Shown here: in pieces, positions 21,628 through 33,565 of the stretch | Numbering within the stretch: the first letter of the stretch is position 1 | Layout of the letters: the number at the start of each line of letters is the position of its first letter | From: a virus | IMG/VR virus record: IMGVR_UViG_3300009182_000119 | Span: 1-42,076 of that record | Length of the DNA: 42,076 nucleotides | Direction: 5' to 3' (one strand) | The notes under the pieces: model-generated | What the model saw: only the letters and a program-made list of their open reading frames with translations | What the model was told of the DNA's origin: nothing | Database searches by the model: none | Made by a program: the position numbers and the translations under genes

Positions 21628-21941
21628 TAGCATCTCCCATCCAAGTCAAAATCTTCATCCGTAATCCAACGCTCTAACAATGTTAGGTTGGTTTCATTGA
21701 TAACAAAGGTCACTCCCCCTGCTTTACGGATGTCTGCCATTTCTTTTTCTTGTAGTGCAGTAGGCTTATTAGTTCCAGCCTTGCACTCTATGGCGATGAA
21801 CTTACCCTTAGCACAGCATATGATATCGGGCACACCTGAGCGCCCAAAGCCATGGGTTGCAGGAAAGAAGTAATAGATACCATGTTGCTTTAGTATCTTT
21901 ACGACTTTATCTTTTACTTTCTTTTCGGGAGTTTGTGCCAT
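21627..21941 (-). CDS. VRR-NUC domain nuclease
   Basis: A 104-residue single-domain nuclease of the VRR-NUC (PD-(D/E)XK) family. SGVPDIICCAKGKFIAIECKAG is split by the classic order GVPD (acidic residue), then ExK in IECKAG. Length and layout fit phage VRR-NUC proteins that cut branched DNA. The gene carries the site CTAACAATGTTAG inside it (read as Leu-Thr-Leu-Leu), the leftmost of the series. A promoter-like pair overlaps the start region, and no Shine-Dalgarno is visible, so the transcript may be leaderless. Confidence 0.85.
   Translation of the reverse strand: MAQTPEKKVKDKVVKILKQHGIYYFFPATHGFGRSGVPDIICCAKGKFIAIECKAGTNKPTALQEKEMADIRKAGGVTFVINETNLTLLERWITDEDFDLDGRC
21674..21686. repeat. 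Palindrome site 1, CTAACAATGTTAG
   Basis: Leftmost copy of the dispersed 13-bp near-palindrome. It lies inside the VRR-nuclease gene, where the - strand reads it as Thr-Leu-Leu codons. No copy was noticed further left. Confidence 0.9.
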
Positions 21942-21947
21942 GCCACC

Positions 21948-21975
21948 ATGATAACATGGTGTTGGACTTTGTCAA
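21948..21975 (-). promoter_or_regulatory. Candidate sigma-70 promoter for the VRR-nuclease/polA operon
   Basis: TTGACA (21975-21970) and TATCAT (21953-21948) are 16 bp apart on the - strand. The expected start point is about 21941, the first base of the nuclease ATG, so the transcript would be leaderless. The -10 box is not a perfect TATAAT, which lowers confidence. Confidence 0.45.
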
Positions 21976-22115
21976 GGGAGAGTTGGGTGGATATGTAGAT
22001 TCTCTGCCACCCTCAGAGTTTGGATTCAGCTAGCCAAGGAAATCTCGGGGCAACTAGCTGATGATAAAATCGTTTGCATCTACAAGGCTAATAGGTTCTA
22101 TCGTAATCAAATGCC
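21976..22115. other. Non-coding gap with inverted repeats
   Basis: The gap between the VRR-nuclease promoter and the DUF3310 gene holds two possible hairpins. One pairs GGGTGG with CCACCC near 21984-22014. The other pairs TCAGCTAG with CTAGCTGA near 22027-22064. There is no T tract after either, so they are not clear terminators. I see no coding frame. Confidence 0.45.
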
Positions 22116-22116
22116 C

Positions 22117-22129
22117 CTAACATTGTTAG
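22117..22129. repeat. Palindrome site 2, CTAACATTGTTAG
   Basis: The TAA stop codon of the HTH-DUF3310 gene (22126-22128) is part of this copy. The 15-bp form with outer C and G is intact. Confidence 0.95.
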
Positions 22130-22578
22130 GTCTTGCTTAAGTTTTCCACCGCACGATTGAGATACCATTGCGCCTTCTTAAGGTTCTCTAGCTTAGTGTC
22201 TTTGAACTCAGCACGACTAATGTACTTAACCACATTACCTAAATGGTAGTCCAACTGCTTAGCTTCGATAAAGTCGATAGTCTCAATACCACCCACCTTA
22301 TAGTGGCTCGGGCTATTCACCTTGTCATCCGCATATACTGCCATTGACATTACTGCGTTAGGTACAAGCGTTGAAGGTTTCTGGCGCATACTCTTATTGC
22401 TTGTCCCCACCCATGTGGTTTTCCAATCATCTTTAGTCGCTGCCAATCTTGTCTTATTCCTACGCTGATATATGCTAGCCACACTAACACCAAACTTCTT
22501 GGCAACTTCGCTAGCCTTTGCATCAGGGTTGCTCTCCATGTATGCGTTAATCCTCTTGCTTTTGGTTGATGCTTTCAT
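22126..22578 (-). CDS. HTH + DUF3310 protein
   Basis: A 150-residue protein with two parts. Residues 1-45 form a helix-turn-helix (SEVAKKFGVSVASIYQRRNK). Residues about 85-150 match DUF3310: VNSPSHYKVGG, IETIDFIEAK, GNVVKYISRAEFKD and LKKAQWYLNRA. That family is often called a phage nucleotide-kinase-like domain, though no function is proved. The fusion of an HTH to DUF3310 is not the usual form. The stop codon is inside a palindrome site. The ribosome site is AAGGAGAAG. Confidence 0.8.
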   Translation of the reverse strand: MKASTKSKRINAYMESNPDAKASEVAKKFGVSVASIYQRRNKTRLAATKDDWKTTWVGTSNKSMRQKPSTLVPNAVMSMAVYADDKVNSPSHYKVGGIETIDFIEAKQLDYHLGNVVKYISRAEFKDTKLENLKKAQWYLNRAVENLSKT

Positions 22579-22750
22579 TTACTTCTCCTTGTTGTTGAAT
22601 ATAACTAGCTAACACTTCCCTAATCTTTGCACTCTTGTTAGGGTATTTATTAAAAAAATCTGCTACTTCTTGGCTGATACGAATAGGTAGGTAAACCATT
22701 GCAGGCTTTGCCCCTCTACCCCTACCTTTCTTTAGGGTTACTTCACTCAT
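22547..22750 (-). CDS. Ribbon-helix-helix DNA-binding protein
   Basis: A 67-residue basic protein. MVYLPIRISQEVADFFNKYP has the strand-then-helix order of a ribbon-helix-helix (CopG/Arc-like) repressor, followed by SAKIREVLASYIQQ as helix 2. The start at MSEVTL, the second of two tandem ATGs, is backed by AAAGAGAT. The longer frame overlaps the upstream gene. It overlaps the next gene by 32 nt. RHH dimers bind short palindromes, so it is another candidate binder for the 13-bp sites. Confidence 0.7.
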   Translation of the reverse strand: MSEVTLKKGRGRGAKPAMVYLPIRISQEVADFFNKYPNKSAKIREVLASYIQQQGEVNESINQKQED

Positions 22751-22961
22751 CATTATCTCTTTGGTTAGCTTCTCTGTTAAGTTTAAATAAGTAATCATTC
22801 CGATACTCGGTTGGTGGGACAAACCCAAACTTCTTAAAAGTTTTTAACACATCAGAACCGCCTGTGTATACGAACTTAGAATTAGTATCAATAGCCATTG
22901 CTGGTATCCTTTCCTTAGGTTTAGGTTCAACTACATTTAACTTGCGTTTAAATAAACTCAT
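22743..22961 (-). CDS. Hypothetical protein (72 aa)
   Basis: This 72-residue protein starts MSLFKRKLNVVEPKPKERIP, with AAGGGGGAAGT upstream, 9 bp after the end of the 277-residue gene. The second half (SDVLKTFKKFGFVPPTEYRN) looks helical. Its stop overlaps the RHH start by 8 nt, so the two are coupled. No family is recognised. Confidence 0.6.
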   Translation of the reverse strand: MSLFKRKLNVVEPKPKERIPAMAIDTNSKFVYTGGSDVLKTFKKFGFVPPTEYRNDYLFKLNREANQRDNDE

Positions 22962-22970
22962 ACTTCCCCC

Positions 22971-23804
22971 TTAGCTAACATTGTTAGGCATTACCAAGAA
23001 AGTCGTTTCGTTTGCACGAACACCGACACCATCTATTACTTGGTTATCTTCAACTAGCTTAAGTAGCCCTACTGCCCTTCGCATAAAGTCGGGCAACTCT
23101 TCACTCGTTTTTATTTCTAAAGGGTCTTTGCCCTTTTGTATAGAATAGTTTAACCCATCTATGAACACAATGTAAGCGTCTCCTTTACGCAACGCATCTT
23201 GCATTACATCAACTGAACAAAACTCAGCTATAACAGACGGCAACTTCTCTACACTAGCACTTACTGAAGTATCCGTAATTGAACTAACAAACTGCGCATA
23301 GTTTTCATAAATAAACTTTTGCGTATGCTCTCGCAACGCATCCCATTTATGTGACAAGTCCCATCTTTTCTGATTGTGTACATTACCTAAAACATTAATG
23401 ATTACTCCACTAGCCTCAGTAAACTTCTCATTCACATTCTTCTTACCAAAGAACTTACCTATATGTTTGATAGCTTTATCTTCGTGGATTGTTTTCATAC
23501 CGCTACCACGCTCTCGCATGCTACTGATACGATGGTTGTCTACGCAATACCGCCATCCAACATTGCTCGTATAATCTTTGTCGATTGTGCCTAGTACTTC
23601 TCTCTTATCCACAATGTTAAAACGATACGCTTCATAAGTCTTAGTAGAGTGGTTAGCCGTGTTATACACTTCCTCGAATGTCCATTGTGGATACTTGAGT
23701 GCTAGCTTCTCTATAAAACTTTTGAGGAATGGGTCGATAACTGATTCCTTCTCGCCCTCCCCAAACTTGTCATGCTTTTTTAATTTGATGTTCTCGTATG
23801 TCAT
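22971..23804 (-). CDS. Hypothetical protein (277 aa)
   Basis: The start is the ATG at 23804 (MTYENIKLKKHDKFG), which has GGGGGAGAAG in front and follows the stop of a tiny membrane gene by 4 nt. The protein is mixed alpha/beta with no motif I can name; it contains an acidic/hydrophobic stretch (GDAYIVFIDGLNY). The last codons (PNNVS) are written by a palindrome site, so its C-terminus is set by the DNA site. It lies next to the DUF3150/VWA/MoxR genes and may belong with them. Confidence 0.65.
   Translation of the reverse strand: MTYENIKLKKHDKFGEGEKESVIDPFLKSFIEKLALKYPQWTFEEVYNTANHSTKTYEAYRFNIVDKREVLGTIDKDYTSNVGWRYCVDNHRISSMRERGSGMKTIHEDKAIKHIGKFFGKKNVNEKFTEASGVIINVLGNVHNQKRWDLSHKWDALREHTQKFIYENYAQFVSSITDTSVSASVEKLPSVIAEFCSVDVMQDALRKGDAYIVFIDGLNYSIQKGKDPLEIKTSEELPDFMRRAVGLLKLVEDNQVIDGVGVRANETTFLVMPNNVS
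22975..22987. repeat. Palindrome site 3, CTAACATTGTTAG
   Basis: This copy sits in the last five codons of the 277-residue gene and is read as Asn-Asn-Val. It is extended by a G/C pair outside the core. Confidence 0.95.
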
Positions 23805-23808
23805 CTGA

Positions 23809-23907
23809 TTACTTCTCCCCCAAATAAATAGTAAATAAAACATATAAAGCAAAAGCCCATGTAAGCGCCCCTGTTAAAGCAAGTACTGTTACTAATACAG
23901 TAAACAT
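23809..23907 (-). CDS. Tiny membrane protein (32 aa)
   Basis: A 32-residue frame, MFTVLVTVLALTGALTWAFA and on, which is almost all one transmembrane helix ending in a short LGEK tail. AAGGGGG stands 5 nt before the ATG, and the gene fills exactly the gap between two genes (4 nt before the next start). Ribosome site, packing and hydrophobicity support it as real. The job is unknown; small phage membrane proteins can act in exclusion or host control. Confidence 0.65.
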   Translation of the reverse strand: MFTVLVTVLALTGALTWAFALYVLFTIYLGEK

Positions 23908-23916
23908 ATATCCCCC

Positions 23917-24774
23917 TTACCAATCAAACTTCTTAAGAATATCATCGACCTTAGACTTCACAGATTGCCGAACTTCTGCATGTTCTTTGATGTCCTCGAT
24001 GTCAACCCCTAACATTGTTAGCTCAAGGGAACGGCGGGCATTCTCAAGCAATGGGTCTTTCGTTATGTTCAAGTGCGTAAGTAAACCGCATAGCTCCTGC
24101 GCATTCGTAATCAGGGTATCGTGATACCTCTTCTTAGTATCTTCGTCACCCTCTACATCAGTTAGCTTTTCTGAGATATGCACAAGGTTCTTATGCAACT
24201 TCTCCCAAGGTTCACGCATGGCATCTTTGAGTCTGTCGTTGAATGCCAACTCATACTTGTCTTGCATCTCCACCATGTCCTGTTGCGGAATGTCCAAGCG
24301 GAAGTCACCACTCTCAGGTAACGGAGAGAATACTAATCGGAATCCGAACTTGTTACGCAACTCCTCGATACTAGGATAGTCGTAAGGGTTGAACAATGCG
24401 CCCATGTGATGTTTCGCTAGGTCGATCAGGTCTGCATAGTTTGCATAGAAGTCCTCGATCATGGTAGTCATGTTGCTCTGATACACATTCATGTTTTGTT
24501 TGTAGTCCATGAACAGGCTTGTGGGTAGTAGCCTTGCACCTTTGTCTGACCACGACAGCGTAGTCTGATTATGGTAGAGCCTAGCCCTAGCAGCGTAGTC
24601 AGCTATCTTCTTACGCTTATCTGTACCAGCCATTAAGTTCTTACGCACTTGTGCCGAACCACTACTTGCACTATTACTTACAAGCACACTATCGGTTGCA
24701 CCCTTATCCAACTTGTTGGCAGTCCATACACTAATGTTTAGTTCTACCAATACTGCACTAGACGATATACTCAT
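23917..24774 (-). CDS. DUF3150-like protein of the MoxR/VWA set
   Basis: A 285-residue, largely helical protein. The pattern of an early 'SVWTANKLDKGAT' segment, KKIADYAARARLYHNQTTLSWSD and FPxxDY-like FNPYDYPSIEELRNKFGF resembles the DUF3150 family. That family is commonly found beside MoxR ATPases and VWA proteins, exactly the neighbours here. The exact biochemical role is not known. It contains a palindrome site read as Leu-Thr-Met-Leu. The start codon overlaps nothing and is preceded by AGGAGAAGTA. Confidence 0.7.
   Translation of the reverse strand: MSISSSAVLVELNISVWTANKLDKGATDSVLVSNSASSGSAQVRKNLMAGTDKRKKIADYAARARLYHNQTTLSWSDKGARLLPTSLFMDYKQNMNVYQSNMTTMIEDFYANYADLIDLAKHHMGALFNPYDYPSIEELRNKFGFRLVFSPLPESGDFRLDIPQQDMVEMQDKYELAFNDRLKDAMREPWEKLHKNLVHISEKLTDVEGDEDTKKRYHDTLITNAQELCGLLTHLNITKDPLLENARRSLELTMLGVDIEDIKEHAEVRQSVKSKVDDILKKFDW
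24009..24021. repeat. Palindrome site 4, CTAACATTGTTAG
   Basis: This copy lies inside the DUF3150-like gene and is read as Leu-Thr-Met-Leu-Gly. Confidence 0.95.
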
Positions 24775-24776: not shown

Positions 24777-25019
24777 TTACTTCTCCTCAGGTTTGCCAGC
24801 TAACTTCGCTAGGTTATACATACCACCGCTCAATACACGCATGTCACACAACAACTTGTCTTGGGGGAAGATATGAAAGGTACTACCCCCTTGCTCTGCA
24901 CTTTGATACTTCTCGGTATACATCTCTGCATCTTTGAGAAGGTCTAACATTGTTAGGGCTTTGTCAGCATCCATAACAAACTCCTTGTTCCACCCCATGT
25001 TTACTATTACTTTGTTCAT
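24777..25019 (-). CDS. Hypothetical protein (80 aa) in the MoxR/VWA set
   Basis: The start at 25019 (MNKVIVNMGWNKEF) is favoured by AAGGAC eight nt upstream, at the end of the VWA gene. The longer frame overlaps the VWA gene heavily. The protein is small with an N-terminal strand region and an LDLLKDAEMYTEKYQ helix. A palindrome site is read in it as Leu-Thr-Met-Leu-Asp. It lies between the VWA and DUF3150-like genes and is probably part of the same unit. No family is recognised. Confidence 0.65.
   Translation of the reverse strand: MNKVIVNMGWNKEFVMDADKALTMLDLLKDAEMYTEKYQSAEQGGSTFHIFPQDKLLCDMRVLSGGMYNLAKLAGKPEEK
24944..24956. repeat. Palindrome site 5, CTAACATTGTTAG
   Basis: This copy lies inside the 80-residue gene and is read as Leu-Thr-Met-Leu-Asp. 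Confidence 0.95.
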
Positions 25020-25023
25020 ATGA

Positions 25024-26232
25024 TTAGTCCTTAACATGTATTGTCTTACCCACAGAGGCAACAGATTTATTACCTCCCACAATAGTCCATAGAATCGGTG
25101 CATCCCAATCATCTCCCCACTCCCCCACATATCCGTCAGTCAGCATGATGATTGCTTCGGGCTTAATCACCTTCTCTTTCAAGTAACGCATTACGCAAGT
25201 AGGGTCAGTACCACCACCCCCCTTAGGTTGAGTAGAGCTAACAATGTTATCCACTTGGGAAGAGTCATACTCCTCATGTCCTGCAACTGCACCATCCCAA
25301 TAGATCAAATCAACTTTGTCAGGGTGAACATCCTTAGCAATGCCTTGCACCTCAGATAAGAACTCTGCTAATTCTTTACCACCTACTGAGCCACTCGTAT
25401 CAATACCAATCACAAGATGACCTACACGCTCACCTATTAGAGTAGGCATATAGATATCTTGACCTAGGTATCTACGATTTACTCTGCGCCATGAACTTGT
25501 ATCTTTCGCATTACATGTAGAGCGAACAAACTCCTTGAGCAACTCTCTCCAATCCACCTTGGGTTCAAGCAACTCTTGCAACTCTCGAGATAGTCCACCG
25601 CCACCTTGCCCTGCAAGTTTCTGCTGAGCAATTACACCTTGCCTAATAGCCTGATCGATGTCACGCTCCAGCTCTTTCTTGGATTCTTCATCCAATGCTT
25701 TTGCACCTTCCCAATCATGGTCATCAAAGCCTTCACCACCGCCACCACCACCGCCTTCTTCCTCTTCTTCTTTCAGAATATCGAATACTTGCTTAGCATT
25801 CATCCCTCGGAATCGTTCATCGACTGCACCTATCGCCTTACCATTACGCTGAGGCATTGCTACTAGCAGTTCATCCTTATCCATATCCTTTAGCTGAAGG
25901 TTGATTACATAGTCACATGCTAGGTTTGCAAGATGAGGGTTCTCATCGTTGAGTTTCTTCCATGTAAACAGATGACGATAAGCCTTGTGCAATGTCTCAT
26001 GTAAGACTACGAATGCCAACTCCTTATCATCTAAGGACTTAACGAACTCACGACCATAGCGTTCATCTCTACCATTAGTACATGCGGTTGGAGTATCTTC
26101 ATCTACACTTGTTCTACCCACAGTCATCAAGCCTGACCATAATGCGAACTTCGGGTTACGCATAATGCTGATCTTAACTTTGCTTAATCTGCGTTCTTCT
26201 TTGTCTTTGACTACTTGAATATCACCTAACAT
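25024..26232 (-). CDS. VWA domain protein with zincin-like motif
   Basis: A 402-residue protein. Near residues 65-75, FVVLHETLHKAYRHL supplies an HExxH motif, as in the DUF2201-type putative metallopeptidase domain. A Gly/Glu-rich linker (EEEEEGGGGGGGEG) follows. The C-terminal VWA-like domain has the MIDAS motif GIDTSGSVGG (DxSxS) and a later GGGGTDP metal loop. It probably acts as the metal-binding partner of the MoxR ATPase. The ATG is inside the palindrome at 26226-26238, 2 nt after the stop of the upstream gene, with GAAAGG as ribosome site. Confidence 0.85.
   Translation of the reverse strand: MLGDIQVVKDKEERRLSKVKISIMRNPKFALWSGLMTVGRTSVDEDTPTACTNGRDERYGREFVKSLDDKELAFVVLHETLHKAYRHLFTWKKLNDENPHLANLACDYVINLQLKDMDKDELLVAMPQRNGKAIGAVDERFRGMNAKQVFDILKEEEEEGGGGGGGEGFDDHDWEGAKALDEESKKELERDIDQAIRQGVIAQQKLAGQGGGGLSRELQELLEPKVDWRELLKEFVRSTCNAKDTSSWRRVNRRYLGQDIYMPTLIGERVGHLVIGIDTSGSVGGKELAEFLSEVQGIAKDVHPDKVDLIYWDGAVAGHEEYDSSQVDNIVSSTQPKGGGGTDPTCVMRYLKEKVIKPEAIIMLTDGYVGEWGDDWDAPILWTIVGGNKSVASVGKTIHVKD
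25238..25250. repeat. Palindrome site 6, CTAACAATGTTAT
   Basis: This copy differs in the last base (T for G) and lies inside the VWA gene, where it is read as Asn-Ile-Val. Confidence 0.85.
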
Positions 26233-26238
26233 TGTTAG
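26226..26238. repeat. Palindrome site 7 at a stop/start junction
   Basis: On the - strand CTAACAATGTTAG supplies both the TAA stop of the mini-sigma gene (26237-26235) and the ATG of the VWA gene (26232-26230), as TAACAATG. Confidence 0.95.
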
Positions 26239-26405
26239 CCTTTCTTTTTTGAATCATCGAAAAAATCCTCGAACTTATACCCCTTGGCATACATCAGCTT
26301 GCGTAACTTACCTAGCGCCCGCTCTTGTATCTGCCTTATTCTTTCTCTACTAATAGTAGGGTTCTTAATTTGGGCGTAAACAACATCCTTATTCTTCTTA
26401 GTCAT
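26235..26405 (-). CDS. Mini protein with sigma-70 region 4.2 helix (56 aa)
   Basis: The core TISRERIRQIQERALGKLRKL is nearly the recognition-helix segment of sigma-70 region 4.2 (bacterial form: TRERIRQIEAKALRKLR), the part that reads the -35 box. At 56 residues it lacks regions 2 and 3, so it cannot be a full sigma factor. The start at 26405 (MTKKNKD) overlaps the upstream stop by 8 nt; the longer frame is less likely. It could compete for or alter host RNA polymerase recognition of promoters. It sits between MoxR and VWA genes. Confidence 0.7.
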   Translation of the reverse strand: MTKKNKDVVYAQIKNPTISRERIRQIQERALGKLRKLMYAKGYKFEDFFDDSKKKG

Positions 26406-26583
26406 GGTGTTCGCCTGTCCTATCAAAGTATTCTTCGGCATACTCCAATACCTCTTGCCTAAATAAATCAAGCGGGTACTTACCATTAGCCAAATCACAT
26501 AACAAATCTAGGAATGAATCGGGGTCGAGATTATCGCTACCAATCCAATCTTCCATCATGCTTTTAGTTATCGTCTTGCTCAT
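26398..26583 (-). CDS. Small acidic protein (61 aa)
   Basis: The start at 26583 (MSKTITKSMMEDWIG) overlaps the MoxR stop as ATGA, so it is translated with it. It is rich in Asp and Glu with a helical C-terminal half (FRQEVLEYAEEYFDR). Nothing in it identifies a family. Its location in the MoxR/VWA unit suggests an adaptor, but this is only positional. Confidence 0.6.
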   Translation of the reverse strand: MSKTITKSMMEDWIGSDNLDPDSFLDLLCDLANGKYPLDLFRQEVLEYAEEYFDRTGEHHD

Positions 26584-27647
26584 AGTAAGTCCTCGTTCTT
26601 CTGAACCCAATCAGCGAACTTACTACTAGAGAATGCAATAGACTGTTTGCTTGGTGACTTAGCAATATTGATAGCAAAGCATGCTTGCCACTCGGGTTGA
26701 AACCGCTCAATGTATTCCATGAACTTAGGCATACTCTGCTTGTCCATCTTACTGATAGCACCGAACACAATAATTGCACATGCACCTGCACTCTCAGGAA
26801 CTAAGGCAGTCTTAGGATTAGCAATCACCGACTCCCATGTTGGAAGCTGGTCTGAGAACTCTATGTATGCTTGCATATCCCTAGATGCCGCTTCACCAAC
26901 CGCACCACTCATTGCACATATCAAGCTATCCGTATCTAACTGTGACCGCACCCTAACAATGTTAGATACTCTCTCCAATGAACGAGGCGATACGAATGCT
27001 GACTGCATCTTCTTTGGATTGAAAATGTATGGGTTGTCTGCTTGCCCTTCATCTAAGTAGCTAGCCATTGCATGAGGGAATTGTCTAACCCACGCAATAA
27101 TCTCAGGCGCAATATCATTCTCGATTGCCCATGCCATCCACTCATCAGCATCAGGCTTTCTTACATGTAGCGGAATAATACGATTCATACTATGCGCTTT
27201 CAGGGAATCACCCACACCATCTGAACTGAGGTTGCCTGTCAGAAAAGTAATAGACTGAGGGTGCAATGCAATATCACCGAGCCGAGGGTTTGCCACCTCA
27301 AGCATTGGGTGCAACATGTTCTTGATTGGGTCTGCACCTTTCGTATACTCATCTAACATTGTTATGACGGGTTTACCCAGATGCAATTTGAATCTACTGT
27401 TAGGGTAGTAGGCAGTAGTCTTTGTCTCCCTGTCGATAACGGGCATTGCGATATCACCCAAATCCATGTTGGGTACATCAATGTAAGACACCTCATGATC
27501 GGGTAGCTTTGCTGATAGCGACTTAAGCAGAGACGATTTGCCAATTCCTGGCTCGCCACGCAAAAAGTAGCGATTCATTGGGGTTGAAAGAATAATGTTT
27601 GATGCTTGTGCTAGTGTTACTGTTTTACCGAAGTTAATTTCAGCCAT
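26580..27647 (-). CDS. MoxR-type AAA+ ATPase
   Basis: A 355-residue AAA+ ATPase. Walker A is LRGEPGIGKSSLL near residue 33. Walker B is VITMLDEYTKG near 97. Sensor-1 is ITFLTGNLSS, and a later PRSLERVSNIVRV region fits the sensor-2 area. This is the ATP motor of the set with VWA and DUF3150-like partners; MoxR-VWA pairs usually act as chaperone-like remodelers. Ribosome site AAGGAG is 10 nt before the ATG. Two palindrome sites lie inside, one over the Walker B codons. Promoter P1 lies 130 bp upstream. Confidence 0.85.
   Translation of the reverse strand: MAEINFGKTVTLAQASNIILSTPMNRYFLRGEPGIGKSSLLKSLSAKLPDHEVSYIDVPNMDLGDIAMPVIDRETKTTAYYPNSRFKLHLGKPVITMLDEYTKGADPIKNMLHPMLEVANPRLGDIALHPQSITFLTGNLSSDGVGDSLKAHSMNRIIPLHVRKPDADEWMAWAIENDIAPEIIAWVRQFPHAMASYLDEGQADNPYIFNPKKMQSAFVSPRSLERVSNIVRVRSQLDTDSLICAMSGAVGEAASRDMQAYIEFSDQLPTWESVIANPKTALVPESAGACAIIVFGAISKMDKQSMPKFMEYIERFQPEWQACFAINIAKSPSKQSIAFSSSKFADWVQKNEDLL
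26953..26965. repeat. Palindrome site 8, CTAACAATGTTAG
   Basis: This copy is inside the MoxR gene and is read as Asn-Ile-Val-Arg. Confidence 0.95.
27353..27365. repeat. Palindrome site 9, CTAACATTGTTAT
   Basis: The last base differs from the consensus. The copy covers the Walker B codons of MoxR (ITMLDE). Confidence 0.85.
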
Positions 27648-27720: not shown

Positions 27721-27733
27721 CTAACATTGTTAG
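27721..27733. repeat. Palindrome site 10, CTAACATTGTTAG
   Basis: This copy is in the leader between promoter P1 and the MoxR start, 43 bp downstream of the -10 box. The gap 27648-27840 otherwise holds only P1 and an inverted repeat. Confidence 0.95.
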
Positions 27734-27775: not shown

Positions 27776-27804
27776 ATTATAACACATAATACTAGACAGA
27801 TCAA
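27776..27804 (-). promoter_or_regulatory. Sigma-70-type promoter P1
   Basis: TTGATC (27804-27799) and TATAAT (27781-27776) lie 17 bp apart on the - strand, and an AT-rich stretch with a TTCCGAA inverted repeat follows upstream (27811-27836). It drives MoxR and the genes after it. The spacer begins TGTCTAGTATT, shared with P2. Confidence 0.85.
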
Positions 27805-27840: not shown

Positions 27841-27853
27841 CTAACATTGTTAT
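27841..27853. repeat. Palindrome site 11, CTAACATTGTTAT
   Basis: The TAA stop of the 311-residue gene (27852-27850) is part of this copy. It lies just upstream of P1, so P1 is bracketed by sites 10 and 11. Confidence 0.85.
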
Positions 27854-28785
27854 GCGGTATGCAATCTGCGCCATCCGTCTCTAAAGTATTTGCCATTGCT
27901 ATCTCTGCGAGCCACACCTATGGGTACTTCCTTCTGCACAAGCACCTCATCTCTATGGAATCCCACGATCAGATCGTCAAGGGCTACCTTGATCTTCTTC
28001 TCTGTCACCACATAGCCTTCGGGTTCTCTATACATATGGTTGCCATATGACTTTGCTAGTAGCAGTAAAGCCTTGTAGAAATCGTCATGCTGACTCTCAC
28101 CTTCTGAGTTCATCAGGGTAAATAGATTCTTAACTCCATCAGTCCACTTGTCATAGGCACGATTGCTTAACTCGATGCCCATATCAAGCGCATTAGGGGA
28201 CTTAGGGTGAGGGAACACCCGAACCATCTCCGAATGTAAGTAAGGGTCGTTGCCTTTGAGTCTGCACATACGACTAGCGTAATCAAGGAACGGCTTGTAC
28301 TTTGCCCTAACATTGTTAGCTTTCTTGCGGTCTATCGCATGCACATACTTGGGTTCTAGCTTGTCAGTCTTAACTTCAAGGTTGCCTTGCCCATTCATGC
28401 GTAGCCATATACCCTCACCACCCAAAGCAAACTCACCCTGTATAGTCTTGATATACAGATCGTTGTTATAGATGCGACTGCGTACACCACTCCCACATAG
28501 AATCTCGTCTATGAAGTTGCAAGTCGATACACTATTCCAATCATCGTTCTTAATGCGGATATCACCGTCTGTAAAGAAGGTTACTACTGCTGTGTTATAC
28601 AGAACACAAGCCACACCCCCCTCGGGTAGCACCTCGATCTTGTATTGGTCAGCTTGCCGTCTGTTGCCAAGCGGTCTTACATCTACACCCCTACCACGAA
28701 TAGGCTTGGTATTCTCCCACTTGTGGATTGCTTCGTTGTAGTTTGCAAGGGCATGAATCCCCGAATTCCTATGATGTCCGTACAC
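27850..28785 (-). CDS. Hypothetical protein (311 aa)
   Basis: The start is a GTG at 28785 with a strong GGAGGAG five nt before it. The protein has a mix of strands and helices, with charged segments (KIEVLPEGG, NNDLYIKTIQGEFALGGEG) and a basic last part. I do not recognise a domain. It ends inside a palindrome site and contains another (ANNVRA). It follows a possible 48-residue gene by 2 nt. It may be an accessory early protein. Confidence 0.65.
   Translation of the reverse strand: MYGHHRNSGIHALANYNEAIHKWENTKPIRGRGVDVRPLGNRRQADQYKIEVLPEGGVACVLYNTAVVTFFTDGDIRIKNDDWNSVSTCNFIDEILCGSGVRSRIYNNDLYIKTIQGEFALGGEGIWLRMNGQGNLEVKTDKLEPKYVHAIDRKKANNVRAKYKPFLDYASRMCRLKGNDPYLHSEMVRVFPHPKSPNALDMGIELSNRAYDKWTDGVKNLFTLMNSEGESQHDDFYKALLLLAKSYGNHMYREPEGYVVTEKKIKVALDDLIVGFHRDEVLVQKEVPIGVARRDSNGKYFRDGWRRLHTA
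28307..28319. repeat. Palindrome site 12, CTAACATTGTTAG
   Basis: This copy is inside the 311-residue gene and is read as Asn-Asn-Val-Arg. Confidence 0.95.
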
Positions 28786-28787: not shown

Positions 28788-28934
28788 TTACTCCTCCATT
28801 ATGTTTACTTGCTTAGTCCTAACATTGTTAGGCTTATACCTGTGCTTACCACTATTACGCTTGGGTTGCATGATTAGCGCCCGAACAATCGGGTTGCGTT
28901 GTAGCGGTATCTTCTTTCTTGGTCTTTTCTTCAT
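28788..28934 (-). CDS. Possible small basic protein (48 aa), overlapping upstream gene
   Basis: The frame starts MKKRPRKKIPLQRNP and is strongly basic. AAGGAG stands 7 nt before the ATG, and the stop is followed 2 nt later by the GTG of the 311-residue gene. It overlaps the end of the 172-residue gene by 80 bp in another frame, which is the main reason for doubt. A palindrome site within is read as Asn-Asn-Val. If real it would be nucleic-acid binding by charge. Confidence 0.5.
   Translation of the reverse strand: MKKRPRKKIPLQRNPIVRALIMQPKRNSGKHRYKPNNVRTKQVNIMEE
28819..28831. repeat. Palindrome site 13, CTAACATTGTTAG
   Basis: This copy lies between the stop of the 172-residue gene and the GTG of the 311-residue gene, inside the possible 48-residue frame. 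Confidence 0.95.
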
Positions 28935-29373
28935 CTGAAAACTCCTTATCAATATCTCCATTACCAAATACCTCACCCATTACCTCGCAATACATGCCTG
29001 AGTATGGTTGAAACGCTTCAAAGTCAGGCTCATCACCAAAGTCCTCTTGCACTATGTCAGCAGTTTCTTCGCCCACCCTGCAAAAGTACCCACTTATACC
29101 CTCTACCTCTTGCATGCTAGCCCACAACTTATCCCACGCTTGTACCACCTCATATTGGGGATACCACTTCCAATCTTGGGCATAAAAGTAAAACGAGCCA
29201 GCCCTCCAACCGATACAGTCTTTATCTTCCTCTTGCATAATTCTGTAGAACTCGGATAGCTTGATGAACCCAATCATCTCCTTGTACTTTAGTTTGTACT
29301 TAGCAATATCTTCGGGTTCACCATTCCACCCATCGACACTAAATACTCCACCCACTTGACTTCGATACCCCAT
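28855..29373 (-). CDS. Hypothetical phage protein (172 aa)
   Basis: The protein begins MGYRSQVGGVFSVDGW and is rich in Tyr, Trp and acidic residues (WRAGSFYFYAQDWKWYPQY, EDFGDEPDFEAFQPY), suggesting a compact strand-rich fold. The C-terminal 35 residues are acidic and polar. It starts in TAATG, overlapping the upstream stop by one base. No named domain is recognised; proteins with a 'MGYRS' start occur in several phages, but that is from memory. Confidence 0.65.
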   Translation of the reverse strand: MGYRSQVGGVFSVDGWNGEPEDIAKYKLKYKEMIGFIKLSEFYRIMQEEDKDCIGWRAGSFYFYAQDWKWYPQYEVVQAWDKLWASMQEVEGISGYFCRVGEETADIVQEDFGDEPDFEAFQPYSGMYCEVMGEVFGNGDIDKEFSDEEKTKKEDTATTQPDCSGANHATQA

Positions 29374-29579
29374 TACTTTTCCCCCTCTAACATTGTTAGG
29401 GTTGCTTTACGCATCGCTTCCATGCCCTGATTGAATCCTTCGACAAACAACATGCGGTCATCATCATCAAAGATATTGCCTTGCTCTTCGTCAAAGGCAT
29501 AGAACGCATCGGTTGCATCTAGTGTTACATCTTCAATCTTCTCTGCGTTAATGCGGTCATCTGTTGTAAATGTAGTCAT
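29373..29579 (-). CDS. Small acidic protein (68 aa)
   Basis: A 68-residue acidic protein (EEQGNIFDDDDRMLFVEGF). The ATG at 29579 has AAGGAGAATAGT upstream. It is one of a chain of small genes coupled by short gaps. The end is read through a palindrome site (TLTMLEGEK). No family is recognised. Confidence 0.6.
   Translation of the reverse strand: MTTFTTDDRINAEKIEDVTLDATDAFYAFDEEQGNIFDDDDRMLFVEGFNQGMEAMRKATLTMLEGEK
29387..29399. repeat. Palindrome site 14, CTAACATTGTTAG
   Basis: This copy is four codons before the stop of the 68-residue gene and is read as Leu-Thr-Met-Leu. Confidence 0.95.
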
Positions 29580-29580: not shown

Positions 29581-29763
29581 CTATTCTCCTTGTAATGCGG
29601 TTAGTTTTGCCTTTGCTATTGCTAGCGTAGCCCTTGCTTCCATCGATCTTTCTGTTAGTGCCTCGTTCTCATAGTCGTCATAACTATTTTCCAAGGCTCT
29701 GCTCAACTTCTCTATCTGCTTGAGCAACTCACTAATGCGTTGCCCTTTGTAAAACTTAGTCAT
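29581..29763 (-). CDS. Small coiled-coil protein (60 aa)
   Basis: A 60-residue protein almost wholly made of heptad-like helix (ISELLKQIEKLSRALENSYD, then RATLAIAKAKLTALQ), so it probably forms a coiled coil. The ATG has GAGGAG seven nt ahead and overlaps the upstream stop by 8 nt. Function is not known. Confidence 0.65.
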   Translation of the reverse strand: MTKFYKGQRISELLKQIEKLSRALENSYDDYENEALTERSMEARATLAIAKAKLTALQGE

Positions 29764-30022
29764 AAAACTCCTCTAATTTATAAGTCCCATCTTCTTCCAA
29801 CATAGCTTGCAAGTCCAACCACAAGTCCATCGCTTGGTCTATCCGTAACACATTAATAGCAGATAAGTCCATGCCAAACCTATCTGTATACTTCTCTACA
29901 TCTTTCCAAAGAACTTTCCATCCTTCATCCCAATCGGTCATGTCGTAGTCGCCTAAAACTCCTGTGCCATCTTCGCTTGCACTTACTACGCAGAACCTAA
30001 CAATGTTAGGTTTATCAGCCAT
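29756..30022 (-). CDS. Hypothetical protein (88 aa)
   Basis: The start at 30022 (MADKPNIVRFCVVS) has GGGGGG upstream; the 19-residue longer frame has no better site. The protein looks alpha/beta, with an acidic central part (DYDMTDWDEGWKVLWKD). Residues 5-9 (PNIVR) are written by a palindrome site, so its N-terminus is set by that DNA. Overlaps of 8 nt with both neighbours mark it as part of the operon. Confidence 0.6.
   Translation of the reverse strand: MADKPNIVRFCVVSASEDGTGVLGDYDMTDWDEGWKVLWKDVEKYTDRFGMDLSAINVLRIDQAMDLWLDLQAMLEEDGTYKLEEFYD
29997..30009. repeat. Palindrome site 15, CTAACAATGTTAG
   Basis: This copy is in the first codons of the 88-residue gene and is read as Asn-Ile-Val-Arg. 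Confidence 0.95.
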
Positions 30023-30281
30023 TGAATCCCCCCATTCTGTAAGCCACACCATCAAGAAACCCTTGCACATACGCATCACACGCTATGCCTTCTTTGGCTA
30101 GCTTGGTATTCTGCCCACTCTCTGCATACTCGTAGGCTTTACCCAATGCGTAGTCAAAAATAGTCCCTCGGTCTTTCGGTTGCATGTCGTCTAGCAGGGC
30201 TAAGACTTTCTTCTTCTCCTCGTGGCTCATGCTAAATAGCGCATCGCATAATTCGTAGTAATCCCTGTCCTTTACTTTCAT
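30015..30281 (-). CDS. Hypothetical helical protein (88 aa)
   Basis: The start at 30281 (MKVKDRDYYELCDAL) has CGGAG eight nt upstream and overlaps the stop of the 20-residue frame as ATGA. It is helical throughout (SHEEKKKVLALLDDMQP, FDYALGKAYEYAESG). No family is recognised. It precedes the 88-residue gene with an 8-nt overlap. Confidence 0.6.
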   Translation of the reverse strand: MKVKDRDYYELCDALFSMSHEEKKKVLALLDDMQPKDRGTIFDYALGKAYEYAESGQNTKLAKEGIACDAYVQGFLDGVAYRMGGFNG

Positions 30282-30340
30282 TGCTTTTCTCCGTTTATCC
30301 ATCTAATTAAGTCTTGCCACTCTTGTTCGGTCAAAGTCAT
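30278..30340 (-). CDS. Tiny protein (20 aa)
   Basis: The 20-residue frame starts MTLTEQEWQDLIRW. It overlaps both neighbours by exactly 4 nt (ATGA at each end) and has AGAGG before its ATG. That organisation is what real coupled genes show and is unlikely by accident, but the length is near the limit of what can be judged. It may instead act only to couple translation. Confidence 0.5.
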   Translation of the reverse strand: MTLTEQEWQDLIRWINGEKQ

Positions 30341-30540
30341 GTTGTCCTCTTTGGGTTGGTAAAGCACAACTCTTGTGGGTTATGGATATATTGGTAAGCA
30401 CCCTTTGAGTAGGGAATCTGCACAATATGCTTTACACCTTTTGCCACTTTGTCGCCACACTTAAGGCATGTCGTATACCCTAGGTCTAGTCTGCCAATCG
30501 GTATCTCCAAGCCACATTCACAATCCATGCCATATAACAT
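30337..30540 (-). CDS. Small zinc-ribbon-like protein (67 aa)
   Basis: The protein has Cys pairs MDCECG and CLKCG that would form a zinc ribbon. The start at 30540 (MLYGMDCE) is in the palindrome, 2 nt after the stop of the 25-residue membrane frame, with GGGGAG ten nt before it. A 6-codon longer frame (MGSDLT) has no ribosome site. The role is unknown; zinc ribbons in phages often bind DNA or RNA polymerase. Confidence 0.6.
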   Translation of the reverse strand: MLYGMDCECGLEIPIGRLDLGYTTCLKCGDKVAKGVKHIVQIPYSKGAYQYIHNPQELCFTNPKRTT

Positions 30541-30546
30541 TGTTAG
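30534..30546. repeat. Palindrome site 16, ATAACATTGTTAG, at a stop/start junction
   Basis: On the - strand TAACAATG gives the stop of the 25-residue membrane gene (30545-30543) and the start of the zinc-ribbon gene (30540-30538), as at site 7. The first base differs from the consensus. Confidence 0.85.
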
Positions 30547-30620
30547 ATCACTCCCCATATCAGATTAACCATAAAGACTACCAAAGCAATGCCGAGCAAA
30601 ATGTCCCATATATCTTTCAT
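30543..30620 (-). CDS. Tiny membrane protein (25 aa)
   Basis: A 25-residue frame, MKDIWDILLGIALVVFMVNL and on, is a single transmembrane helix. Its ATG overlaps the stop of the 57-residue gene as ATGA, and its stop is within a palindrome site. Hydrophobicity and tight coupling support it. The role is unknown. Confidence 0.6.
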   Translation of the reverse strand: MKDIWDILLGIALVVFMVNLIWGVI

Positions 30621-30811: not shown

Positions 30812-30824
30812 CTAACATTGTTAG
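30812..30824. repeat. Palindrome site 17, CTAACATTGTTAG
   Basis: This copy is in the leader 55 bp downstream of the P2 -10 box and 22 bp before the start codon of the 57-residue gene. Confidence 0.95.
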
Positions 30825-30878: not shown

Positions 30879-30907
30879 ATTATAACATAAAATACTAGAC
30901 AGATCAA
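30879..30907 (-). promoter_or_regulatory. Sigma-70-type promoter P2
   Basis: TTGATC (30907-30902) and TATAAT (30884-30879) lie 17 bp apart on the - strand, and the -35 and first spacer half match P1 closely (TGTCTAGTATT). It heads the 30.8 to 27.85 kb gene chain. Confidence 0.85.
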
Positions 30908-30961: not shown

Positions 30962-31012
30962 TTGGGCTACCACCCCTCTGAGAACTGTCATTTCCCAAAA
31001 TGACAAAAGGGC
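30962..31012. repeat. Hairpin repeat R1
   Basis: First of three related elements starting TTGGGCTACCAC, continuing with TCTGAGAACTGTCATT and closed by an 8-bp stem TGTCATTT/AAATGACA (loop CCCA). It is in non-coding DNA between P2 and site 18. There is no T tract, so it is not a terminator. Confidence 0.75.
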
Positions 31013-31031
31013 AAGCCGAATGGCAAAAGAC

Positions 31032-31044
31032 CTAACATTGTTAG
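31032..31044. repeat. Palindrome site 18, extended by GAC/GTC
   Basis: The flanks make a 19-bp palindrome, GACCTAACATTGTTAGGTC, at 31029-31047, between P2/R1 and the terminator of the 176-residue gene. Confidence 0.95.
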
Positions 31045-31053
31045 GTCATGGAC

Positions 31054-31082
31054 AAAAAAATACCCTGCCTAGTGCAGGGTAT
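31054..31082 (-). terminator. Rho-independent terminator of the 176-aa gene
   Basis: On the - strand a 9-bp stem ATACCCTGC/GCAGGGTAT (loop ACTAG) is followed by seven T residues, 21 bp after the gene's stop codon. The gene is thus a single-gene transcript between P3 and this terminator. Confidence 0.85.
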
Positions 31083-31102
31083 CTAAGGGGAAGGGCAGGG
31101 GT

Positions 31103-31633
31103 TTAGTCTGCAATCATTCCGATATCAACTCCCATCTCAGCCAAAGCCTCAGCGATTTTCTGCTGAACTTTAGTCAACTTAGGGGACAGAGATTCCTGTC
31201 TGCGGTTGAACTTATAGAGGACAGTCAATTCCTCAAGATTACGCAACTCAGGAGAACGATTGTGCTTTGCGTCATCTGAACCCTCAGCGACTTCTTCCCC
31301 GTCTGCACCTTCTTCGCTAGGCACAACTGCTTTGCCATAACGATTCTCCAAACCATAATCACGCACATCTTTCCAAACTTTGGAAGGGTTAGAGTGCCCG
31401 ATTTCTTTCAAGCCTACAAAGAACAATTCCTTTTCTTTGCGGACTGCTTTGCCCTCATCCGAAGAATCGGTATGACTTACTGCGAACCAATCGAATGAAT
31501 CGAACTTCAGATTCAGAGCCTTTGCGTATTCCACATTAGCACCATAAGAGGACTTCTGAGCTTCGATTGCACCTTGACGCTTTTCAGCAACGATTGCATC
31601 TACATCCACACCATACACATTTAATTGAACCAT
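31103..31633 (-). CDS. Paralogous early protein A (176 aa)
   Basis: The protein is a clear paralogue of the 174-residue protein at 32900-33424. Shared blocks include YGANVEYAK, SDEGKAV, RYGKAVV, DAKHNRSPELRN, KFNRRQESLS and MGVDIGMI. The two N-termini differ. It has an acidic middle linker (EEGADGEEVAEGSDD) and a helical C-terminus. The start has GGAGTAGTCAAA upstream. It is a single-gene unit with its own promoter P3 and terminator, suggesting strong expression. The family is not recognised. Confidence 0.75.
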   Translation of the reverse strand: MVQLNVYGVDVDAIVAEKRQGAIEAQKSSYGANVEYAKALNLKFDSFDWFAVSHTDSSDEGKAVRKEKELFFVGLKEIGHSNPSKVWKDVRDYGLENRYGKAVVPSEEGADGEEVAEGSDDAKHNRSPELRNLEELTVLYKFNRRQESLSPKLTKVQQKIAEALAEMGVDIGMIAD

Positions 31634-31645
31634 TTTGACTACTCC

Positions 31646-31658
31646 ATAACAATGTTAG
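31646..31658. repeat. Palindrome site 19, ATAACAATGTTAG
   Basis: This copy is in the leader of the 176-residue gene, 53 bp downstream of the P3 -10 box. The first base differs from the consensus. Confidence 0.85.
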
Positions 31659-31710
31659 GTTAAATAGAGAACCCAACTAACTCTTTGACGCTTTTTGATT
31701 CTATACCTAA

Positions 31711-31739
31711 AGTATAACACAATATAAGAGACAGTTCAA
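31711..31739 (-). promoter_or_regulatory. Sigma-70-type promoter P3
   Basis: TTGAAC (31739-31734) and TATACT (31716-31711) lie 17 bp apart on the - strand, in the same pattern as P1 and P2 (TTGA-C-TGTCT spacer start). It drives the 176-residue gene. Confidence 0.8.
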
Positions 31740-31777
31740 GTATTTTGCAGAAATATTTTAAATTTTCGGAATGGGGG

Positions 31778-32134
31778 TAATATTAGAAAATAAGGGTAAT
31801 ATTAGAAAAGTGAGGGTTTTTCTAATGCATTTTCTAATAATATAAAAGTCAATAAGCATAAGGCTTAGCGAGGAGAAAATTAGGTAATATTAGAAAATAA
31901 GACTTTTTAAGAAATTATATACCCCCTGGGGAATCTCTCTGCCATTGTAAGATTTTGCACTGCGCTAAAGGCTCTCTTTAGAAGTTCGTGTACAACTTTT
32001 GCACTTTTTCTAATAATACCCCAAAAACGCCTGTAAGTCCTTAATTACAAAGGCTTTTGTATTATAAGAACTTGACATTGCTTTTCTAATAATACACGCA
32101 AGTCCTTGATTTATAAGGATGCAATATTAGAAAA
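31778..32134. repeat. Iteron-like array (8 copies), candidate replication origin
   Basis: Four direct copies of (T/C)AATATTAGAAAA start at 31778, 31797, 31885 and 32122; the first two are a 19-bp tandem. Four inverted TTTTCTAAT(AATA)-type copies start at 31818, 31830, 32006 and 32082. They sit in an AT-rich, gene-free stretch between P3 and site 20. Repeated short motifs plus AT-rich DNA are the usual mark of an iteron origin, but no initiator is identified. An array for a regulator is the other possibility. Confidence 0.7.
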
Positions 32135-32152
32135 CTCTTTTTTGGCCAATGC

Positions 32153-32165
32153 CTAACATTGTTAG
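32153..32165. repeat. Palindrome site 20, CTAACATTGTTAG
   Basis: This copy lies in non-coding DNA, 19 bp beyond the iteron-like array and just before repeat R2. The outer GC/GGC bases lengthen the symmetry. Confidence 0.95.
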
Positions 32166-32172
32166 GGCACTA

Positions 32173-32218
32173 TGGGCTTCCACTCCTCTGAGAACTGTCA
32201 TTCCCAGCATGACAAAAT
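32173..32218. repeat. Hairpin repeat R2
   Basis: Second copy: TGGGCTTCCACTCCTCTGAG, then AACTGTCATT and ATGACA pairing with TGTCAT. The hairpin is imperfect compared with R1 but the same layout is kept. Confidence 0.7.
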
Positions 32219-32233
32219 CTTGTCTCCGAGGCT

Positions 32234-32288
32234 TTGGGCTTCCACCCTCCTAAGAACTATCATTTCCAAAACTTCTTAAAAATGATGG
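32234..32288. repeat. Hairpin repeat R3
   Basis: Third copy: TTGGGCTTCCACC, then TAAGAACTATCATTT, with a longer loop before AAATGAT closes the stem. It is adjacent to R2 and ends 14 bp before site 21. Confidence 0.65.
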
Positions 32289-32301
32289 AAACAAAAAAAC
32301 C

Positions 32302-32314
32302 CTAACATTGTTAG
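32302..32314. repeat. Palindrome site 21, CTAACATTGTTAG
   Basis: This copy lies just beyond the terminator of the 56-residue gene; outer CC and GG give a 17-bp palindrome (32300-32316). Confidence 0.95.
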
Positions 32315-32322
32315 GGCATGGG

Positions 32323-32349
32323 CAAAAGAAAATCCCCTTTCGGGGATTT
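32323..32349 (-). terminator. Rho-independent terminator of the 32.3-33.4 kb unit
   Basis: On the - strand an 8-bp stem AAATCCCC/GGGGATTT (loop GAAA) is followed by a T-rich TCTTTT tail, 3 bp beyond the last stop codon. Confidence 0.8.
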
Positions 32350-32351
32350 GT

Positions 32352-32522
32352 CTACATCAGGTCAAACATGTAATCGGGTTCTAATCCAAACTCATAGTGT
32401 AGTATCTCTTCGATATCTCCACCATCTGCGACCAACTGCTTTGCCTCTTCAATCATCTCGAGGGCTTCGGATTTTTCCATGCCATCACGGCGCATTAAAA
32501 CTTCCAAGATAGATAATTCCAT
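32352..32522 (-). CDS. Small acidic protein (56 aa)
   Basis: The start at 32522 (MELSILEVLMRRDGM) has GGAGTAATCATA ahead; the 21-codon longer frame does not. The protein is helical and acidic (EKSEALEMIEEAKQLVADGG), with a LEPDYMFD end. It follows the 96-residue gene by 19 bp, and both carry the same leader (TAACCCTA, then TGGAGTAAT). It is the last gene of the P4 transcript. No family is recognised. Confidence 0.6.
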   Translation of the reverse strand: MELSILEVLMRRDGMEKSEALEMIEEAKQLVADGGDIEEILHYEFGLEPDYMFDLM

Positions 32523-32541
32523 TATGATTACTCCAGTAGGG

Positions 32542-32832
32542 TTAAGAGATTTGTTCACGATACACATATACTGAATCTGCGCCATGACTATTCTGAGATA
32601 GGTAAGCAGAGATACATTCCTGCGCCATAGTGTGATCTGAGAAAATTGTAGGTTTGCCGTTTTCCTGCCCTAAGTAAGTAAAGCGAACCAAATATTTTCC
32701 GTCTTGCAAAGTATCAATAGATGCAGAGAATTTAGGGAATAGCTCCATTTGTCTCCATGCATCACCTTGAATCGAATCTAAATGCTTATAAAAGGTGGTT
32801 TCTACTTTTTTGGTTTTATAAAATACTGGCAT
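32542..32832 (-). CDS. Hypothetical protein (96 aa)
   Basis: The ATG at 32832 has GGAGTAATAAC upstream. The 96-residue protein has a strand-rich core (FSASIDTLQDGKYLVRFTYL, GADSVYVYREQ) with a basic N-terminus (YKTKKVETTFYKH). No family is recognised. Its leader shares CTTAACCCTA and TGGAGTAAT with that of the next gene, so the two leaders look duplicated. It belongs to the P4 transcript. Confidence 0.6.
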   Translation of the reverse strand: MPVFYKTKKVETTFYKHLDSIQGDAWRQMELFPKFSASIDTLQDGKYLVRFTYLGQENGKPTIFSDHTMAQECISAYLSQNSHGADSVYVYREQIS

Positions 32833-32871
32833 GTTATTACTCCATTAGGGTTAAGGGTTTCGGAGGATACC

Positions 32872-32884
32872 CTAACAATGTTAG
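32872..32884. repeat. Palindrome site 22 within a 27-bp perfect palindrome
   Basis: Flanks GGATACC and GGTATCC extend the symmetry to 27 bp (32865-32891), giving a 12-bp stem with a 3-nt loop. It is 9 bp past the 174-residue gene and has no T tract. Confidence 0.95.
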
Positions 32885-32899
32885 GGTATCCAATCCTAC

Positions 32900-33424
32900 T
32901 TAGTCGCCGATCATTCCAATATCAACACCCATTGACTCTAGGGCTTTGATAATGTTGCGTTGACAATCTTTGAGGTTATCGCTCAATGACTCTTGGCGAC
33001 GGTTGAATTTAAACAATACTGTTAGCTCCTCAATATTGCGTAACTCAGGTGAGCGATTATGCTTAGCGTCACCAGTTGATTCACCTTCGCCACCTTCGCC
33101 ACCTTCGGCACTCTCTACTACGGCTTTACCATACCGATCGGTGCGAGCATGATCCCTGATTTGTTTCCATGCTTGACTAGGGTTTTTATGCCAATCCTTG
33201 ATACCCTTACGGAAACGATCGCCTTCACCTTTTACCGCTTTACCTTCATCACTGGTATCAGTGTGCTTTAATTCGAACCAGTCAAACTCAGACCATTTTG
33301 CATTGAGTAACTTCGCATACTCGACATTTGCGCCGTATGTTGACTCATATTGAGCGATTACTTTATTGCGGGCTTCATCAATTAACTGCTCTAATGATTT
33401 GCCGTTTTCGATCATATCTAACAT
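32900..33424 (-). CDS. Paralogous early protein B (174 aa)
   Basis: Paralogue of the 176-residue protein at 31103-31633 (same blocks, including DAKHNRSPELRN and MGVDIGMI); the middle linker differs and has a Gly/Glu repeat (GGEGGEGES). The linker DNA is a tandem 9-bp repeat (CACCTTCGC, three times, about 33082-33108). GGAGTAATCAAT precedes the ATG. It is the first gene after P4. Similar parallel expression and flanking of the iteron-like array suggest a linked role; function unknown. Confidence 0.75.
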   Translation of the reverse strand: MLDMIENGKSLEQLIDEARNKVIAQYESTYGANVEYAKLLNAKWSEFDWFELKHTDTSDEGKAVKGEGDRFRKGIKDWHKNPSQAWKQIRDHARTDRYGKAVVESAEGGEGGEGESTGDAKHNRSPELRNIEELTVLFKFNRRQESLSDNLKDCQRNIIKALESMGVDIGMIGD

Positions 33425-33494
33425 ATTGATTACTCCATTTAAATACCTAGATCTGCTAGGTCAGATGCAAACCATTCTCTGTTTGCATAGGTTT

Positions 33495-33524
33495 ATTATA
33501 CTCTATTTGTAACACTAAATGCAA
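33495..33524 (-). promoter_or_regulatory. Sigma-70-type promoter P4
   Basis: TTGCAT (33524-33519) and TATAAT (33500-33495) lie 18 bp apart on the - strand. It heads the leftward transcript of the 174-, 96- and 56-residue genes. The flanks differ from P1-P3. Confidence 0.65.
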
Positions 33525-33552
33525 GTTATCAGAAACAATAAATAGCCCTACC

Positions 33553-33565
33553 CTAACAATGTTAG
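33553..33565. repeat. Palindrome site 23, CTAACAATGTTAG
   Basis: Rightmost copy, upstream of P4. No copy was noticed to the right. Confidence 0.95.

Follow-up and report, generated by a model that had tools for sequence, protein, structure and literature searches.

The IMG/VR virus record IMGVR_UViG_3300009182_000119 (42,076 nt; the window, analysed here at its full length) is of the tailed-phage type, and carries across its early genes an array of short palindromic sites with the core TAACAWTGTTA. The terminase large subunit of the record is 50-57% identical to those of the Pelagibacter phages HTVC027P/HTVC023P and of phage DSL-LC04, and its DNA polymerase is 37% identical to that of the Rhizobium phages RHph_TM. 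A leftward block of genes extends from the terminase region (~33.5 kb) to the primase (10.8 kb), and the sites fill only the upstream part of this block, ending where the endonuclease and DNA polymerase genes start. By pattern search the record contains 23 exact sites, the first at 21675 and the last ending at 33564, with zero matches in the rest of the 42 kb; the full 13-mer CTAACAWTGTTAG is perfect in 18 of them, and the remaining five (at 25239, 27354, 27842, 30535 and 31647) have one outer base off. These counts agree with an earlier note, made from the sequence alone, which had listed 23 sites, 18 of them perfect and none outside the span. No 11-mer with a single mismatch to the core occurs anywhere in the record, and the site set is therefore nearly all-or-none. 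The note had also held the motif to be far rarer by chance, and indeed 0.03 sites are expected from dinucleotide shuffles and a mean of 0.40 (maximum 2) was obtained in 300 codon-preserving shuffles; a similar density was thus found neither outside the region nor in shuffled sequence. Its further claim, that DNA or RNA sequence rather than peptide is being kept, is supported as regards DNA. The sites are more evenly spaced than random (mean 539 bp, coefficient of variation 0.47; 0 of 2000 random placements were as even), and their dyad reaches into the flanks, as aCCTAACA-N-TGTTAGGt.

Numbered leftward from the terminase side, site 1 (33554-33564) lies some 29 bp ahead of the -35 element in the probable promoter for the first early gene (33495-33524, minus strand; TTGCAT-N18-TATAAT), which was recognized from its sequence and from the upstream site being placed as in relatives. 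The first early gene is present twice, as copy 1 (32900-33424, minus strand; 174 amino acids) and as a paralogue, copy 2 (31103-31633, minus strand; 176 amino acids; 57% identical to copy 1). Site 2 (32873-32883) lies between copy 1 and the gene at 32542-32832, within a longer perfect inverted repeat; site 3 (32303-32313) stands directly past a terminator, is followed by a T run and is itself terminator-like; and site 4 (32154-32164) is intergenic. Site 5 (31647-31657) is in the leader of copy 2, at about +46 from a predicted secondary early promoter (31711-31739, minus strand; TTGAAC-N17-TATACT), site 6 (31033-31043) directly past the terminator of copy 2, and site 7 (30813-30823) in a leader, at about +48 from another such promoter (30879-30907, minus strand; TTGATC-N17-TATAAT). 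Site 8 (30535-30545) includes the start codon of 30337-30558, site 9 (29998-30008) lies in the start region of 29756-30079, and site 10 (29388-29398) at the 3' end of 29373-29579. Site 11 (28820-28830) is intergenic, before the gene at 27850-28785, which contains site 12 (28308-28318) and whose stop codon is included in site 13 (27842-27852). The predicted secondary early promoter before the ATPase gene (27776-27804, minus strand; TTGATC-N17-TATAAT) has site 13 at about -83 and site 14 (27722-27732), in the ATPase leader, at about +36; sites 15 (27354-27364) and 16 (26954-26964) are within the ATPase gene, at positions common to the relatives G002 and G014. Site 17 (26227-26237) occupies the stop/start junction of 26235-26498 and 25024-26232, and sites 18 (25239-25249), 19 (24945-24955) and 20 (24010-24020) are within 25024-26232, 24777-25130 and 23917-24774, respectively. 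Site 21 (22976-22986) is at the 3' end of 22971-23852; site 22 (22118-22128) overlaps the end of 22126-22578 and is the last ahead of the predicted promoter of the endonuclease/DNA polymerase, or replication, block (21948-21975, minus strand; TTGACA-N16-TATCAT); and site 23 (21675-21685) is downstream of that promoter, within the endonuclease gene (21627-21941).

Queries with the DNA polymerase and with the VWA gene (25024-26232) gathered more than 230 related loci, and the array is conserved in more than 150 loci of uncultured aquatic phages, with 10-25 sites each and always in the early block, from the terminase genes to the DNA polymerase. In the long relatives examined the array is confined to this block, apart from single outliers in a helicase or primase gene (G008, G015, G021 and G028). 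The motif itself varies by lineage: loci with TAACA half-sites have spacers of 1 bp (79 loci), 2 bp (53), 3 bp (3) or 0 bp (1), and other types are TGACA-2 (6 loci), TCACA-1 (5) and CTGATACGTATCAG (3). The earlier note had named loss of the motif in close relatives as a sign against its reading; in the relatives the motif is kept, or replaced in concert. The motif occurs at 0-1 copies in eight records of cultured phages. More distant relatives (L197, L202, L216, L219, L222 and L228-L232) have other repeated palindromes (ATACA-4, GTAAC-4, CTTAAC-4, GTAGTG-3, TAATGTC-1, TACTGTC-1 and TTAGGC-3), and L197, L202 and L216 among them have homologues of the first early gene.

The sites are placed in a regular way with respect to predicted promoters. 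Behind secondary early promoters (n=135, from 78 loci) a site starts at +20 to +90 in 92% of cases, with a mode at +43 to +50, where the chance of a site at +20 to +80 is about 8%. A site overlaps the promoter in at most 2% of predicted promoters, and a classical operator over the -35 and -10 was rejected on this ground. Replication-block promoters (n=62, from 61 loci) show the opposite arrangement: none has a site at +20 to +90, and 73% have one about 50-110 bp upstream (spread -54 to -102), as do 71% of first-gene promoters (n=17); these upstream distances show no helical phasing. Where one gene adjoins the next, sites also overlap the stop and start codons. A conserved spacer and extended -10, TAAC(A/T)NTGTGGTATAAT, recurs in the secondary early promoters of many loci (for example L208 at 2784 and L272 at 5986); this element resembles half an operator, whatever the spacer of the sites.

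As judged from the pattern of variation among the sites, they are a DNA dyad rather than an RNA hairpin, because the half-sites vary independently. When 655 sites with a one-base spacer and 415 with a two-base spacer are taken together, the dyad continues into the flanks as aCCTAACA..TGTTAGGt, to the same degree on either strand; within genomes, left and right bases do not covary at the four flank positions (if anything the reverse), and a pooled covariation excess at -1/+1, due to lineage preferences, disappears; and in coding sites the centre base is A or T in a ratio of 168:157, all of which is as expected of a symmetric dimer on DNA. The earlier note had listed RNA hairpins and ParS-like partition as alternatives, and both are now disfavoured. 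RNA hairpins (CUAAC-AWU-GUUAG) formed in early transcripts and recognized by a phage protein that controls translation or antitermination would suit the sites that stand in leaders just ahead of start codons or include them; yet they would not lead one to expect flanks free of covariation within genomes, an outer pair mismatched in 5 of the 23 window sites, equal use of A and T at the centre, a loop unconstrained across spacers of 1, 2 and 3, or a site upstream of the first promoter, and no match to a known RNA family (Rfam) was found in the window, so that we regard this explanation as most improbable. Sites that organise, partition or mark phage DNA in the manner of parS, matS or Noc, without a role in transcription, might well form a near-invariant dyad at regular spacing, and the matS sites of MatP are likewise 13 bp long. 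Such sites need not keep to +20 to +90 of early promoters, stay away from the equivalent place behind replication promoters or be confined to the early block, and the ParA-type ATPase (PF13614) is absent from 20 relatives (43-68 kb; the records may be incomplete); this possibility, too, seems very slight to us.

Among close relatives, the gene that changes with the motif is the first early gene. In 120 locus pairs whose VWA genes are at least 80% identical, a difference in motif goes with first-gene products that are 14-35% identical, and for 102 of the 103 same-motif pairs the value is 47-100%; no such division is seen with the ATPase, VWA, g23917 and RHH genes. In the main genes downstream, locus L251, with a 2-bp spacer, is 92-98% identical to L246, with a 1-bp spacer; its first gene, however, matches nothing there and instead shares 98% identity with that of L243, another 2-bp locus. 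Similarly, L235 and L236 have identical RHH proteins (98-100%), different motifs and unrelated first genes. Motif type needs 5 changes on the tree of the first gene, compared with 9 on that of the backbone and 11 on that of the RHH protein. By subtype, the first gene of the window type is found in 32 of 37 1-bp loci and 3 of 24 2-bp loci, and that of the L251 type in 6 and 19, respectively; none of the other tested early open reading frames (ORFs) that also differ between exchanged genomes shows a comparable split. Of the 68 loci that cover the array start, 66 have a member of the first-gene family or, in L235, a first gene unrelated to it. From these sequence comparisons the best candidate for the binder is the first early gene, which the earlier note had not named; copies 1 and 2 are thus both candidate cognate regulators in the window. 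Duplication of the gene is also seen in L160, L239 and L197. Of the three proteins that the note had put forward, the HTH protein at 13689-13946 among them, two are excluded: the RHH protein (22547-22750), to which the position of G007's RHH closer to 2-bp-spacer phages had initially pointed, since L235 and L236 share it without sharing a motif and since it is 94% identical between L246 and L251, which differ in spacer; and the HTH-DUF3310 protein (22126-22578), since it is 95% identical in L246 and L251.

The first-gene products belong to no Pfam family, to no PHROG family beyond single weak hits, and match no PDB sequence; the family is absent from 50,697 phage records, with no relative in cultured phages. 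The AlphaFold2 model of copy 2 (mean pLDDT 85) has two confident helical domains, a four-helix N-terminal domain being joined by a flexible linker to a two-helix C-terminal domain. The N-terminal domain includes a conserved helix, NPSxxWxRVR (or TxDxYWQRVKEASG), that may be the recognition helix.

The sites themselves have been rewritten at conserved positions. At orthologous junctions the L251 site is the L246 site plus one inserted base, with the flanks kept (atcgacagcaacTAACAAATGTTAggtaacaaagga vs atcgacagcaacTAACAATGTTAggcaacaaagga), and L235 carries TGATACGTATCA where L236 has TAACAWTGTTA, between similar flanks; sites within genes, which are unable to take a base, have been lost or left as a relic, as at 11002 in L235, the counterpart of site 18. 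This rewriting at orthologous positions implies that selection holds the sites to match the regulator. More tentatively, and with more doubt than confidence, we suggest that the regulator gene and its dispersed operators form an interchangeable specificity system in lytic phages, in which the regulator gene passes from lineage to lineage and conflict during co-infection drives the subsequent rewriting of the entire array site by site.

We hypothesize that the sites are bound by the product of the first early gene, a regulator of an undescribed family, and that its binding blocks elongation and shuts off the early genes, an account that we consider somewhat likelier to be right than wrong. The gene that opens the leftward early operon, present twice here, would make a probably dimeric DNA-binding regulator, which would sit at about +45 behind each secondary early promoter, at the junctions between early genes and within the genes themselves; once bound, it would most likely act as a roadblock to elongating host RNA polymerase and so shut down the early block of host-takeover genes. 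The replication operon, with its own promoter at the array end, and the late genes would remain open. Neither integrases of the tyrosine type, nor large serine recombinases, nor ParA (PF00589, PF07508 and PF13614) were found in the 20 relatives, whose records may be incomplete, and lytic early shut-off is therefore tentatively preferred over lysogenic repression.

Several observations weigh against this hypothesis. Fold searches with the first-gene model gave nothing significant and no DNA-binding domain, and the promoters are consensus predictions. The first genes of L174 and L178 are 23% identical although the motif is the same (the sole exception among the same-motif pairs), both first-gene subtypes occur with both spacers, and the two loci at the array start that lack a detectable family member (L183/G029, one contig) have a 1-bp array all the same. 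In some pairs short ORFs linked to the first gene were swapped along with it; and the related loci are not independent, so that the exchanges amount to about four contrasts. Finally, two motif types share one genome in L290, L293 and L169/L170, the 1-bp type often lying within genes and the other where genes meet; these genomes look as if they had been caught mid-replacement.

Two other ways of reading the array accept a regulator at the sites and differ as to its use. A dual switch like that of phi29 p4, in which the first-gene and replication promoters are activated from the sites at -60 to -100 and the other early promoters are repressed from those at +45, would account for the upstream sites of both promoter classes and for the lack of sites just downstream of replication-block promoters. 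It fits less well with upstream distances that range from -54 to -102 without helical phasing and with promoters of both types that look complete (TTGACA and TATNAT), and insulation against read-through explains the upstream sites equally well; we therefore judge activation from these sites improbable. Alternatively, a resident phage might use its first early protein to silence the early genes of a co-infecting phage with the same motif, an immunity-like exclusion in which conflict would be the force behind the exchange of regulator and sites. Motif specificity does differ, and the array is rewritten, between phages otherwise 90-98% identical, which resembles the heteroimmune cluster A mycobacteriophages (PMC6550527). 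Against this stand the lack of integrase, serine recombinase and ParA genes noted above and a genome scan for prophages in hosts, which returned none, only phage-like contigs in bins of metagenome-assembled genomes at 44-48% or distant cellular homologues; moreover, in a lytic phage immunity would be effective on co-infection only. Exclusion is thus doubtful as the function of the array, and early shut-off by a roadblock remains the hypothesis that we prefer.

Known phages offer partial parallels. The c repressor of the temperate phage phiC31 binds conserved inverted repeats dispersed over the early region, an arrangement like the one described here; to our knowledge its repressor and motif are unrelated to the present ones, the comparison being by description only. 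The earlier note had compared the sites to the stoperators of phage L5, with a different motif, and this analogy is supported. Cluster A mycobacteriophages (L5, Bxb1) have 20-30 short sites with a 13-bp consensus per genome for one phage repressor (PMC6550527); these lie mostly off promoters and block elongation, and their sequence diverges with the repressor (PMC6550527; PMC9283540). The present array is similar in its many short, near-identical, dispersed sites (23 here and 10-25 in relatives), in that most are off promoters, and in that their sequence changes with the candidate regulator. Stoperators, however, lack symmetry and point in the direction of transcription, and their repressor is a monomer that combines an HTH with a stoperator domain (PMC9283540), whereas the sites here are dyad-symmetric in core and flanks; stoperators occur over the whole genome and the present sites in the early block only; and the candidate regulator, the product of the first early gene, is unrelated by sequence to the L5 gp71 / TipsytheTRex repressor family. 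Cluster A phages are temperate, and no lysogeny gene was found in the 20 relatives, within the completeness of their records. Among lytic phages, T7 Gp5.7 is a small DNA-binding protein that silences the early promoters of the host polymerase in a podovirus; it binds RNA polymerase as well, and its effect is on initiation, at -42 to -24 of the A1 promoter (PMC5569994). Gp5.7 is a lytic-phage precedent for the silencing of early promoters by a small DNA-binding protein, although it acts without a dispersed palindrome, and the present system is a member of neither the stoperator nor the Gp5.7 systems. In the early-late switch of phi29 (p4/p6), an early protein turns early promoters off and a later one on (PMC3100819); it acts at one compact promoter region, unlike the array of 10-25 sites.

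The neighbouring genes include three further features. The gene at 25024-26232, labelled HNH endonuclease in PHROGs, encodes by Pfam (E 3e-28 and 3e-16) a DUF2201 metallopeptidase/VWA protein, and lies near the AAA ATPase gene (26580-27647) in a MoxR/VWA-type pair that is highly conserved in the phage clade. In the product of 22126-22578, to which PHROGs gives the annotation nucleotide kinase, an HTH domain and DUF3310 are fused. An element of ~40 nt (TCAT..GGAAATGACAGTTCTCAGAGGRGTGGAAGCCCA) is present in three copies in early leaders (31000-30940, 32270-32215 and 32200-32165, minus strand); its predicted folding is no better than that of shuffles, and beyond the record it is found only in the closest relative, L103.

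The array and its gene bring a promoter-anchored set of operators, together with a named candidate regulator, to a large uncultured clade of phages in which almost no early-gene functions are known, and in the natural swaps one sees how some 20 sites change along with their regulator. If our hypothesis is true, these phages would have a route to early shut-off that does without a phage RNA polymerase, and the first-gene family would be a source of new sequence-specific DNA-binding proteins with a spacer code of 0, 1, 2 or 3 bp.

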